DNA of 50,739 nucleotides. Source: an uncultured Lentisphaeria bacterium. GTDB taxonomy: Bacteria; Verrucomicrobiota; Lentisphaeria; Victivallales; UBA1829. Location: assembly GCA_949287225.1 (NCBI GenBank), contig CASEFP010000176.1, positions 1-50,739 of the forward strand, read 5' to 3'. Shown piece by piece: positions 19,354 to 34,349 of this stretch. The position numbers and the translations under genes are program-made. Within the stretch, counting starts at the first letter, position 1. Each line of letters opens with the position of its first letter. Under the pieces are notes generated by a model. The model was not told the origin of the DNA, made no database searches, and saw only the letters and a program-made list of their open reading frames with translations.

Positions 19354-20748
19354 ATGGCACTCTGGGGCGGAAGATTCGCACAGGACGCGGAACAATGCGT
19401 CCGCGATTTCACTCAATCCATATCTTATGACAAACGCCTGTATCGTTACGATATCGAAGGCAGCAAGGCGCATGCGCGCATGCTCGGGGCGACGGGAATC
19501 ATCCCGCAGACATCCGCCGAGGCGATCTGCGCGAAACTCGACGAGATATGCAAAAGGATCGAAGCCGGGGATTTTCAGTACCGTGTCGAACTTGAAGATA
19601 TCCATATGCATATTGAGTCCGAACTTATCAAACTCCTTGGCGACGAGGGGGCGCGTGTTCACACCGCCAGAAGCCGCAACGACCAGGTGAATCTGGATAT
19701 CCGGCTCTATCTGCGCGATGTGACACTCCATCTGGCGGACGGGATCCGGACACTCCAGAAGGCGCTTGTCGCGCAGGCGGAGGCGAATAAACGGACGATC
19801 CTTCCCGGTTTTACGCATCTCCAGCACGCACAGCCGGTGCTGTTCGCCCACCATCTTCTGGCCTATGTTGAAATGTTTGAACGCGACCGGGGACGGCTTC
19901 TCGACGCGCGCAGACGCCTGAACGTGCTTCCGCTCGGTTCCGGGGCAATTGCCGGAACGACGCTGCCGATCGACCGCGAATTTGTGCGGAAACAGCTGGA
20001 TTTCCCCGCGATGACGCGGAACAGCATGGATGCCGTCGCTTCGCGCGACTTCACCTGCGAGGTGCTTGCCGCGCTTGCGATTTTCGCAATGAACATTTCG
20101 CGCCTTTCCGAGGACATCATCCTCTGGATGTCGCAGGAATTCTCGTTTGTCATGCTTTCCGACGCCTTCTGCACGGGTTCGAGTCTGATGCCGCAGAAGA
20201 AAAATCCGGATATTGCCGAAATTTCGCGCGGCAAGACCGGACGCGTCTACGGGGCGCTGATGTCTATCCTGACCGTCTGCAAGGGACTCCCGCTGACCTA
20301 CAACCGCGATCTGCAGGAGGACAAGGAAGGGTTGTTTGACGCGATTGACACGGTTGAAGCGATCCTTTCCGTCTATCCGCACATGATTGAAACGATGAAG
20401 GTGAATTCCGATCGCATGGCGCAGGCGGCGTCCGACCCCGGGCTCATGGCGACTGATCTTGCTGAAATGCTTGTCCGGAAAGGGGTGCCCTTCCGCCACG
20501 CCCATCACAAGGTCGGTGCGCTGGTCCGCTTCGCCGTCGAGCACGGCAAGGCGCTCAACGAAGTGACCCTTGAGGAGATGAAAAGTGTCTTTCCCGAGGC
20601 GGATGAATCCATGCTTTCCGTTTTTTCCGCGGAAAACGCGGTTGCCGGGCGCGAGGTATTCGGGGGAACCGGTTTCGGCCAGGTCGCCGCGCAGCTCGCA
20701 TTCTGGAACAGGGAATTTTCTCAAGCCGAAATGGTAAAAGGAAAATGA
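19354..20748 (+). CDS. argH: Argininosuccinate lyase
   Basis: A 464-residue enzyme of the fumarase/aspartase superfamily, cleaving argininosuccinate to arginine and fumarate in the last step of arginine synthesis. MALWGGRFAQ at the N-terminus, the HTARSRNDQVNLD motif (about 103-115) and the superfamily signature GSSLMPQKKNPD (275-286, mobile loop with the catalytic serine) are intact. The length matches the family. The start at 19354 follows a purine-rich GGGAAAGGAA; the long frame upstream covers the promoter and divergent TRL gene. The stop overlaps the next gene (ATGA). argC lies 1.7 kb away on the other strand. Confidence 0.97.
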   Translation: MALWGGRFAQDAEQCVRDFTQSISYDKRLYRYDIEGSKAHARMLGATGIIPQTSAEAICAKLDEICKRIEAGDFQYRVELEDIHMHIESELIKLLGDEGARVHTARSRNDQVNLDIRLYLRDVTLHLADGIRTLQKALVAQAEANKRTILPGFTHLQHAQPVLFAHHLLAYVEMFERDRGRLLDARRRLNVLPLGSGAIAGTTLPIDREFVRKQLDFPAMTRNSMDAVASRDFTCEVLAALAIFAMNISRLSEDIILWMSQEFSFVMLSDAFCTGSSLMPQKKNPDIAEISRGKTGRVYGALMSILTVCKGLPLTYNRDLQEDKEGLFDAIDTVEAILSVYPHMIETMKVNSDRMAQAASDPGLMATDLAEMLVRKGVPFRHAHHKVGALVRFAVEHGKALNEVTLEEMKSVFPEADESMLSVFSAENAVAGREVFGGTGFGQVAAQLAFWNREFSQAEMVKGK

Positions 20749-21386
20749 AAACAGGGCTTCCACTCTGGATATCGCTGATTTTCTTCGTCATGGTATGTTC
20801 CGTTGCAGCGCAGGATGTTGTGAGTCTGCCGAAGAATACGTCTTATGCGGATGACGAAACGGGTGGTGTTTTTCCCCCCCGGATCGGCAATTTTACAAAA
20901 ACCAGCGTCACAAAAAATCTGAATCCTTATTATGGAACGAGGGTTCGTTATGCAAATGACTATGGGGCATCCGCCGATGTTTATATTTATTCATTGGATT
21001 TGAAAACCGTGAAACTGTCTCAGGAACAGTGGCAAAGGCATTACGACGAAGTCAAAAACAATATCTCCCATCTCACCGGAAAGAGTGCGCCGCTTGGAGA
21101 AGTTTCCAAGCTTGAGGAGTTTACGCTCACCGTTCCTCTGGAAACCGTGAAAAAACTGGCTCTGGACTCTACTGTTGTCGGGAAGCGCTGCACCTTTGCC
21201 TTTTCCATTGGCGAGGATCCGTTTTTTTCCGAACTGGTGATCTTTTCTGTCGGTTCGAAGATCGTGAAATTGCGTGTGACTTTTTCGCGGGAGATTACTG
21301 CGGAAATGGAAAACGCTTTGCTTTTCCTGAATACTGTCTGCCGGGATTTTTTTGCAAACGCGCAGTTTATTCCAATACCAAAGTGA
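20745..21386 (+). CDS. Hypothetical secreted protein
   Basis: A 213-residue protein with a clear signal peptide (LWISLIFFVMVCSVAAQ, cleavage near residue 23). The mature part mixes beta-strands and polar loops (YYGTRVRYANDYGASADVYI; RCTFAFSIGEDPFFSELVIF) and has no cysteine pairs, repeats or motifs I recognise. Codon use is a little more AT-rich than argH. It overlaps argH by four bases, so it is co-translated with it, though no functional link to arginine synthesis is apparent. The hairpin cluster starts at its stop codon. Confidence 0.75.
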   Translation: MKTGLPLWISLIFFVMVCSVAAQDVVSLPKNTSYADDETGGVFPPRIGNFTKTSVTKNLNPYYGTRVRYANDYGASADVYIYSLDLKTVKLSQEQWQRHYDEVKNNISHLTGKSAPLGEVSKLEEFTLTVPLETVKKLALDSTVVGKRCTFAFSIGEDPFFSELVIFSVGSKIVKLRVTFSREITAEMENALLFLNTVCRDFFANAQFIPIPK

Positions 21387-21490
21387 CGGAAGAATGCGGG
21401 AGCATTCTTCTCGGGGTCAAGGGTCTTTGACCCTTGTCGTGATCCAGCGGCGAAACGCTGGTCGCGCACAGCGCGAATTCCCCGCCCGGA
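21386..21490 (+). repeat. Four-hairpin element, copy 1
   Basis: Hairpins A-B-C-D (arms GAAGAATGC, CAAGGGTC, CCAGCG, TCGCGC) followed by TTCCCCGCCCGGA. The first 79 bases (21386-21464) are identical to 21508-21586 in copy 2. It starts at the last base of the preceding gene's stop codon. Confidence 0.85.
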
Positions 21491-21507
21491 TAGGTGACTG
21501 ACCGGAA

Positions 21508-21612
21508 ACGGAAGAATGCGGGAGCATTCTTCTCGGGGTCAAGGGTCTTTGACCCTTGTCGTGATCCAGCGGCGAAACGCTGGTCGTGCGGAGCACGAAA
21601 TCCCCGCCCGGA
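21508..21612 (+). repeat. Four-hairpin element, copy 2
   Basis: Direct repeat of copy 1 with a period of 122 bp. Hairpin D differs: TCGTGC GGA GCACGA (21584-21598) replaces TCGCGC ACA GCGCGA. The base change in one arm is matched in the other, and the tail ATCCCCGCCCGGA is kept. Confidence 0.85.
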
Positions 21613-21678
21613 GCGGTTCAGACCGCTCAGTGACGAGAACTTTTCCACAGGAAAAGTTCGAGAGCTCCGGGCGTATTC

Positions 21679-21718
21679 ATTGAGACGGAAAAATGCGCAG
21701 GCATTTTTTCGTCTCAAT
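21679..21718. repeat. Long inverted repeat, 18-bp stem with 4-nt loop
   Basis: Arms ATTGAGACGGAAAAATGC (21679-21696) and GCATTTTTTCGTCTCAAT (21701-21718) pair throughout with a single G-T wobble around loop GCAG. There is no T-tract, so it is not a standard terminator. Confidence 0.85.
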
Positions 21719-21870
21719 AATATTCAATAATCACGAGAGCACCGGACTTTTCCTCGGAGTCAAAGGTTTCCCACATGCTTATCAGCGAGAGCTTCGGGAG
21801 TGTCCCTGAGGTCATGCGCTGTACCGGCGGCTCTCGAAGCTTCGCTTCTCGTCCTTGAGCATTTGGAACC

Positions 21871-21973
21871 GCCGCCGGGGAGATTTCGCGCTATGCGCGA
21901 CCAGCTTACGCAGCTGGACCGCGGCAGGACTGAAAGTCCTGCACGAATCAAAATTGCTGTCGCAATTTTTTTT
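21871..21973 (-). repeat. Four-hairpin element, diverged inverted copy
   Basis: Read on the minus strand it shows the order A-B-C-D: AAAATTGC/GCAATTTT, GCAGGACT/AGTCCTGC, CCAGCT/AGCTGG, TCGCGC/GCGCGA, then AAATCTCCCCGG. Blocks TCCAGC, GCTGGTCG and CGAAATxCCCC match copies 1 and 2 while the arms of hairpins A and B have changed and still pair. Confidence 0.7.
21950..21973 (+). terminator. Terminator-like hairpin on the plus strand
   Basis: AAAATTGC (21950-21957), loop TGTC, GCAATTTT (21962-21969) with T continuing to 21973. It could end transcripts from argH and the secreted-protein gene; it is also hairpin A of the inverted element. Confidence 0.55.
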
Positions 21974-21978
21974 AAACT

Positions 21979-22034
21979 GCGCAGCTTCGCGCGCAAAATT
22001 TATTTATAGCGCAGCTTCGCGCGCAGAATTTATT
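21979..22034. repeat. Tandem 26-bp repeat, two copies
   Basis: GCGCAGCTTCGCGCGCA, one variable base, AATTTATT: 21979-22004 and 22009-22034, 30-bp period, one mismatch (A/G). Each contains a small GCGC stem. Confidence 0.8.
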
Positions 22035-22037
22035 AAT

Positions 22038-22346
22038 TCAGTTTTTCGCCAGCTCTGCTGCGACGGCAACACAACGGGAGCACGGAGTTCCGCACTGTGT
22101 TTTGATGGTTCTGCAATCCGGTGCGCCGATCAGACGGATGAATTCGGCTTTTGCTTCCGCTCGTTTCTCTTCCGGAAGCATCCGGAGCGCCGCATGCAAT
22201 GCGCCGCACAAGCCGCCGGGAGCACGTCCGCCGCCACAATTTTTCAATTCTTCCAGAAGTTCGTCATGGCCGCATCCCGCCGCCACAGACTGGGCACAAT
22301 TATGCGTTTTGGGAACGCGTGCAAAAATTTCCTCTGCAATGGACAT
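22038..22346 (-). CDS. C_GCAxxG_C_C-type redox-active cysteine protein
   Basis: A 102-residue protein with cysteines in the family pattern: HNCAQSVAAGC (Cys17, Cys25), then NCGGGRAPGGLCGALHAAL, matching the GG...CGA core, then GAPDCRT and the C-terminal CGTPCSRCVAVAAELA. Members are small, mostly anaerobe-linked proteins thought to carry a metal cluster or redox-active thiols; they often lie by transport or iron genes. No signal peptide or membrane segment. GGGAG lies nine bases before the ATG. It follows argC by 95 bp on the same strand and may be read from its transcript. The exact role is unknown. Confidence 0.78.
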   Translation of the reverse strand: MSIAEEIFARVPKTHNCAQSVAAGCGHDELLEELKNCGGGRAPGGLCGALHAALRMLPEEKRAEAKAEFIRLIGAPDCRTIKTQCGTPCSRCVAVAAELAKN

Positions 22347-34241: not shown

Positions 34242-34270
34242 AAAATAGATTCCTTCTCGTTTGAAAAAGC

Positions 34271-34349
34271 GGAGAAATGCGGGAGCACTTTTCCCGGAAC
34301 GTCAGGGACAGTGCCCCTGATGCCGGCTGTGCGGAGCGCGAAATCCCGT
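34271..34349 (+). repeat. Degenerate copy of the multi-hairpin element between the two pump genes
   Basis: The segment reads AAATGC GGGA GCACTTTT, then TCAGGG with partner CCCTGA, then TGTGC GGA GCGCG and AAATCCCG. Order and several words match copies 1 and 2 (GGGAGCA, TGCGGAGC, CGAAATCCC), but hairpin C is nearly lost. It occupies most of the untranslated gap between the pump gene and the fusion-protein gene, which are transcribed from the minus strand. Confidence 0.6.

Follow-up and report, generated by a model that had tools for sequence, protein, structure and literature searches.

A hairpin-rich array that is probably a composite copy of a dispersed palindromic repeat family of Victivallales

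A dense run of small hairpins downstream of argH in an uncultured Lentisphaeria bacterium consists largely of a unit of about 95 bp that recurs in its own genome and in other genomes of the order Victivallales. With moderate confidence, we interpret the array as a composite copy of a palindromic repeat family, dispersed and non-autonomous, which would work in the manner of REP/BIME elements and be moved as a folded strand. The array was recognized in a stretch of 50,739 nucleotides (GenBank assembly GCA_949287225.1, contig CASEFP010000176.1), which we refer to as the window.

The array occupies positions 21386-22036. Its left edge is the final base of the TGA stop of an open reading frame downstream of argH (20745-21386, 213 aa), and its right edge adjoins the stop of a convergent open reading frame (22038-22346, 102 aa), so the boundaries given in the original prediction were accurate. 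That prediction spoke of about fifteen short inverted repeats. Counting non-overlapping perfect hairpins with arms of at least 6 bp and loops of 3-8 nt, we found exactly 15, containing 280 of the 651 bases, while 500 dinucleotide-preserving shuffles of the same sequence gave a mean of 1.1 hairpins and a maximum of 4, a density far above that expected by chance. The folding energy was likewise extreme at -323.5 kcal/mol; shuffles gave -230.9 +/- 5.1, so that z = -18 whichever strand is folded. The three 651-bp stretches of the window that contain the most hairpins all overlap the array. A search of the window against Rfam 15 returned one tRNA at the gathering score and no credible match in the array region, and a terminator scan found 3 candidates versus 1.3 expected.

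Repeat analysis resolved the array into two direct units, one inverted unit and extra hairpin modules. Each unit has the order hp1-hp2-linker-hp3-hp4-CGAAAT, and the two direct units share 94% identity over 110 nt with a period of 122. The parts of the array, together with a further unit elsewhere in the window, are as follows; bit scores are from covariance model R1, which was built on 67 copies (alignment A1).

21386-21483, plus strand: unit A copy 1 (115.7 bits), with hp1 at 21389-21410, hp2 at 21418-21436, hp3 at 21444-21461 and hp4 at 21462-21476; linker TCGTGAT between hp2 and hp3, and tail CGAATTCCCC after hp4
21508-21605, plus strand: unit A copy 2 (119.6 bits), with hp1 at 21511-21532, hp2 at 21540-21558, hp3 at 21566-21583 and hp4 at 21584-21598; candidate pseudoknot between linker CGT and hp3 loop GCG, and tail CGAAATCCCC after hp4
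21605-21673: accessory module seen from its inverted repeats, an outer stem CGCCCGGAGC/GCTCCGGGCG enclosing hairpins at 21611-21628 and 21637-21659
21679-21718: long hairpin seen from inverted and direct repeats, with 18-nt arms (94% complementary), a 4-nt loop and an hp1-like core
21719-21878: less regular spacer, found again in other genomic copies, in which 21846-21872 pairs with 21613-21639 (27 nt, 78%)
21879-21973, minus strand: unit A', inverted and diverged (69.5 bits), with hp4 at 21886-21900, hp3 at 21901-21917, hp2 at 21924-21942 and hp1 at 21950-21969
21979-22037: right end, two 29-nt tandem repeats, 93% alike, GCGCAGCTTCGCGCGC plus an A/T-rich spacer
34269-34348, plus strand: lone degenerate unit A (33.0 bits, E 1.1e-4), between two RND efflux genes

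The three units and the lone fourth that had been proposed from the sequence are therefore real. The description of the array as a mixture of different hairpins holds insofar as it corresponds to no standard REP class, but what recurs is a single unit in both orientations, accompanied by accessory modules.

The original prediction also implied further copies in the genome, and these are present. The array as a whole matches approximately 40 places in its own genome (4.27 Mb in 254 contigs), many of them at contig ends, which suggests that the repeats probably break the assembly and that all such counts are lower bounds. The single unit has at least 64 matches, with 40 of 104 candidate places scored. 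Covariance-model searching, a check that had been suggested from the sequence, placed the unit across the order: model R1 found it in 36 of 137 Victivallales genomes, several of which carry at least 30 matches, and the copies fall into lineage-specific subfamilies. Among 388 genomes of the phylum, model R2 found it in 35, all Victivallales and belonging to five families (f1, f2, f3, f4 and f7), and the unit was not found in the sampled genomes outside the order. The phylum assumed in the original prediction was thus correct. Within f1, most genera do not have it. A pattern scan of named records also returned nearly exclusively Lentisphaeria/Victivallales, including Victivallis vadensis DSM 14823. 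These results demonstrate that the unit has multiplied separately in several lineages. A database search for a phage or plasmid origin returned no match, and a search of open-licence papers turned up no description of such a repeat family, which thus appears to be undescribed.

Similar hairpin strings around the same core were seen in the Alphaproteobacteria Stella vacuolata, Roseospirillum parvum and Roseococcus (L228 2067-2158, L240 2202-2280 and L269 6173-6252), with one or zero model matches per genome; this likeness may reflect convergence, transfer or a wider superfamily. The core pattern was also seen in five IMG/VR contigs (L334-L338), which may be phage or host contamination, and three of the five matched R1 at E < 0.01.

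What is most telling about the unit could only be read from its relatives: every helix shows compensatory change, and a pseudoknot is likely. In an order-wide alignment of 142 distinct rows (A3), 95.1% of cells form standard pairs, both sides have changed in 30 of the 32 pairs, and there are 766 double-change cells, versus 175 +/- 10 after shuffling; sliding the partners gives no more than 157. The A3 rows were aligned to the model and are therefore biased towards it. A1 was aligned by plain MAFFT without the model, and it gives the same answer on less diverged sequences: 98.4% of cells are paired and 97 carry double changes, while slid partners reach about 40%. Pairing is kept in hp1 and hp2 while their sequence is almost free to vary; the sequence itself is mostly retained throughout the order in hp3, the linker and TCG...CGAAAT. 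Comparison of the sequences thus shows that the predicted fold has been preserved across Victivallales by compensatory change while the sequence diverged. In the genus set, G-U and A-C departures from pairing are about equally frequent (14 versus 12), so neither strand appears to be favoured in the hairpins.

In addition to the hairpins, the linker CGY before hp3 is complementary to the first bases of the hp3 loop, and the two covary by subfamily as CGC/GCG, TGC/GCA, TTC/GAA, CGA/TCG and CGG/CCG. The TGC/GCA subtype occurs in the window's genus, plus one G002 copy, and TTC/GAA in the A' copies of genus g10. Counted alone, this helix is 93.9% paired (at most 38.5% with slid partners) and has 18 double-change cells versus 2.7 +/- 1.5 in shuffles. 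Support is good for its first two pairs, whereas the third is broken in 20 of 142 rows, V. vadensis copies among them. With a first loop of 3 nt, a second stem of 6 bp and an A-rich third loop, the geometry is one that we take to fit a classic H-type pseudoknot. We consider such a pseudoknot likely rather than proven, given that the independent change events are few (about three, as read from the subfamilies).

Where the units lie was assessed with a simple codon-usage gene caller that had been checked on the window. In G001, G003 and G012 they are intergenic and usually a few dozen bases from the 3' end of a gene. Across forty regions of up to 20 kb each, 4 of 28 units in g10 and 6 of 62 in g1 overlapped called genes, and the median distance to the nearest 3' end was 45 bp and 69 bp, respectively. 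Gaps between divergent genes were used below expectation, though not significantly so (p = 0.09 in g10 and 0.8 in g1). Relative to tandem genes, orientation was mixed (3 same and 13 opposite in g10; 14 and 10 in g1).

Orthologous sites of sister species differ by entire units, and their comparison shows that many copies are old and vertically inherited and that units come and go. At site 184b, G002 has no unit, G001 has one (from AAACGG to CGAAAT) and G003 has two. Site 178 has no unit in G002, one A' in G000 and A'-A-A' in G001 and G003, and site 184a has two units in G003 and one in G000; gain, or loss by recombination between direct copies, may account for both sites. At site 174 the unit is common to G000, G001 and G003 and has decayed in G002. 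Among the sister-species sites that we compared, none showed a solitary unit gained in one clean step opposite an intact empty site. In the genus mates G001, G002 and G003 (L137, L138 and L139), the gene after the argC-linked small open reading frame differs from that in the window (20745-22346), so synteny changes where the array sits. Because the neighbour differs, G001 and G003 cannot supply an empty site to match the copy in the window. A search for flanks in g10, run without a control, placed them on different contigs wherever both were found, and for one Victivallis copy the upstream synteny was not shared. In two g10 species, a seemingly equivalent stretch of approximately 15 kb has inverted units at its two ends that score equally with the model (L221 3150-3245 and 17973-18068; L222 10-105 and 15234-15329), which is possibly an invertible segment or a case of gene conversion.

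Victivallis vadensis carries a longer version. The copies that we read are mostly near-palindromes of about 710 bp at gene 3' ends (L339 and L342-L347), approximately 83-92% alike, with terminal inverted repeats and defined ends, GGGATTTCG...CGAAATCCC. One of them splits a terminator-like palindrome (L346) and another lies within an arm of such a palindrome (L344). No target duplication was visible in seven copies.

Our search for a mobilizing enzyme covered Y1_Tnp (IS200/RAYT) genes and found none that could be assigned to the unit. Six carriers, among them the 99%-complete G052, have no such gene, while others have one or retain it in decayed form; at the six loci we read, from five carriers, no unit lay near a Y1_Tnp gene, and the genomes richest in these genes (G056, G059 and G051) have zero or one weak unit. 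A RAYT link of the unit is therefore rejected on present data, and the window itself contains no REP-associated transposase, as had been noted from its sequence. Partial or stop-containing Y1_Tnp genes occur in G001 (L206), G003 (L207) and G002 (L208), and these may be what is left of a RAYT or IS200 that the genus once had.

We also considered a bias in replication strand as a signature of single-stranded DNA transposition, using 20-kb GC skew as a proxy for the strand. In g10, 33 of 40 clusters lay on the C-rich strand (p = 4e-5; weaker but present, 33 of 45, after correction for the coding strand), while g1 showed no bias (11 of 20). A bias predicted beforehand for f4 failed, with 6 of 16 regions in agreement at |skew| >= 0.01 (G125 for, G119 against), and we therefore do not use strand bias as support. 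Orientation relative to GC skew was opposite in the two groups, favouring the C-rich strand in g10 (loci in G012, G019 and G026) and the G-rich strand in G119 (7 of 8; L466-L473).

Several known systems resemble the Victivallales unit in part. As with REP, BIME and REPIN elements, palindromic copies are numerous and scattered, lie mainly between genes and close to 3' ends, form alternating arrays and fall into lineage subfamilies, and no target duplication was seen. GTAG REPs are single imperfect palindromes of 20-40 bp with an unpaired GTAG 5' of the hairpin foot, and they are mobilized by RAYTs (PMC3733652, PMC6006769, PMC3116915). The Victivallales unit, in contrast, is about 95 nt long with four hairpins and a likely pseudoknot, has ACGG, GGGGT and GRT rather than GTAG before its hairpins, and has no RAYT beside it and none at all in several carriers. 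Since it differs in size, tag and RAYT, we describe it as working like REP/BIME without filing it as a member, and the earlier judgement that the array differs from a standard REP pair is borne out. CGTC-tagged REPs are also palindromic, dispersed and apparently without a dedicated transposase, and have a terminal CGTC and a CCA-like tail (PMC3733652). Our unit shares the first three properties, no dedicated transposase having been seen, and its hp1 combines a 9-bp stem with a 4-nt loop; however, most copies read AACGG where GACGG precedes hp1 in others, the CCA tail is absent, and hp1 is one of four hairpins. In IS200/IS605 elements, TnpA-IS200 uses subterminal hairpins together with pairing between guide and cleavage sequences (PMC6006769). 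A parallel would be the recognition of a hairpin combined with pairing to an adjacent short segment, and insertion that leaves no duplication, although our unit has no internal gene, pairs its linker with a loop rather than a guide with a cleavage site, and shows no general strand bias. Among MITEs and other small mobile sequences (PMC2229807), MITEs offer a likeness in being non-autonomous, and in V. vadensis the repeat is a near-palindrome of 0.7 kb whose ends are defined; unlike MITEs, the repeat showed no target duplication in the seven V. vadensis copies and no partner transposase in the Y1_Tnp search, and it has hairpins along its whole length.

The BIME-like alternating arrays and REP-like positions, along with the broken Y1_Tnp genes of the genus mates, would fit a REP/BIME in the strict sense whose RAYT was lost or lies in an assembly gap. 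Given the missing GTAG, the distance from Y1_Tnp genes in five carriers, their absence from six carriers and the nearly unit-free Y1-rich genomes, we regard this as quite improbable. It is possible, if doubtful, that the unit represents a separate class of non-autonomous mobile element, maintained in one order, whose tag is the pseudoknotted fold itself (hp2, the H-type pseudoknot and hp4) and whose enzyme, not a RAYT, reads mainly shape plus a few fixed bases.

Two further explanations were considered. The units could be structured RNA elements, such as a 3'-UTR signal, a terminator or stabilizer, or a small RNA, selected on the transcript and multiplied because they are useful. Conservation of the pseudoknot and of single-stranded bases would suit this, as would the positions beside gene 3' ends. 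Also in its favour, 38 cells of the third pseudoknot pair are U-G; read from the opposite strand, they would be A-C mismatches. Yet the mixed orientation relative to tandem genes and the even G-U and A-C counts in the hairpins argue against a transcript-level role, most genera of the same family lack the unit, copies vary by site and species, and there is no Rfam family, so we think this explanation unlikely. Template-switching correction of quasi-palindromes could instead keep the arms perfect in the absence of selection or an enzyme, with spread by recombination and rearrangement. The strikingly perfect arms, which change in pairs, and the altered synteny next to the window's copy in sister species speak for it. 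Arm-to-arm correction does not, however, predict covariation between linker and loop; across the order the linker, the loop and the CGAAAT tail are also conserved in sequence, and dispersal to many sites requires a mover. We give this explanation very little weight.

Under the reading that we prefer, that of a composite copy of a REP/BIME-like family, the unit would be recognized as a folded single strand, either as single-stranded DNA at replication or transcription or, less likely, as RNA. An enzyme encoded elsewhere would copy or move it without target duplication, and recombination between copies would lengthen or shorten arrays. Speaking against this reading are the lack of a mobilizing enzyme in the Y1_Tnp search, the lack of a clean one-step insertion among the sites compared, the strand bias that failed as a prediction in f4, and the many old copies passed on by vertical descent. 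Once placed, the hairpins would serve as passive 3'-end structures, perhaps as a terminator or mRNA stabilizer, and would be tolerated there.

Such repeats affect how genes end, interrupt assemblies and can give rise to rearrangements, and they have been studied mostly as GTAG REPs with RAYTs. Victivallales present a different unit, with a fold defined by covariation that probably includes a pseudoknot, and with no RAYT adjacent. With this combination of strong covariation and no adjacent RAYT, the question of what moves palindromic repeats that lack a RAYT can be put to a direct test, and a cultured strain, Victivallis vadensis DSM 14823, is among the carriers.
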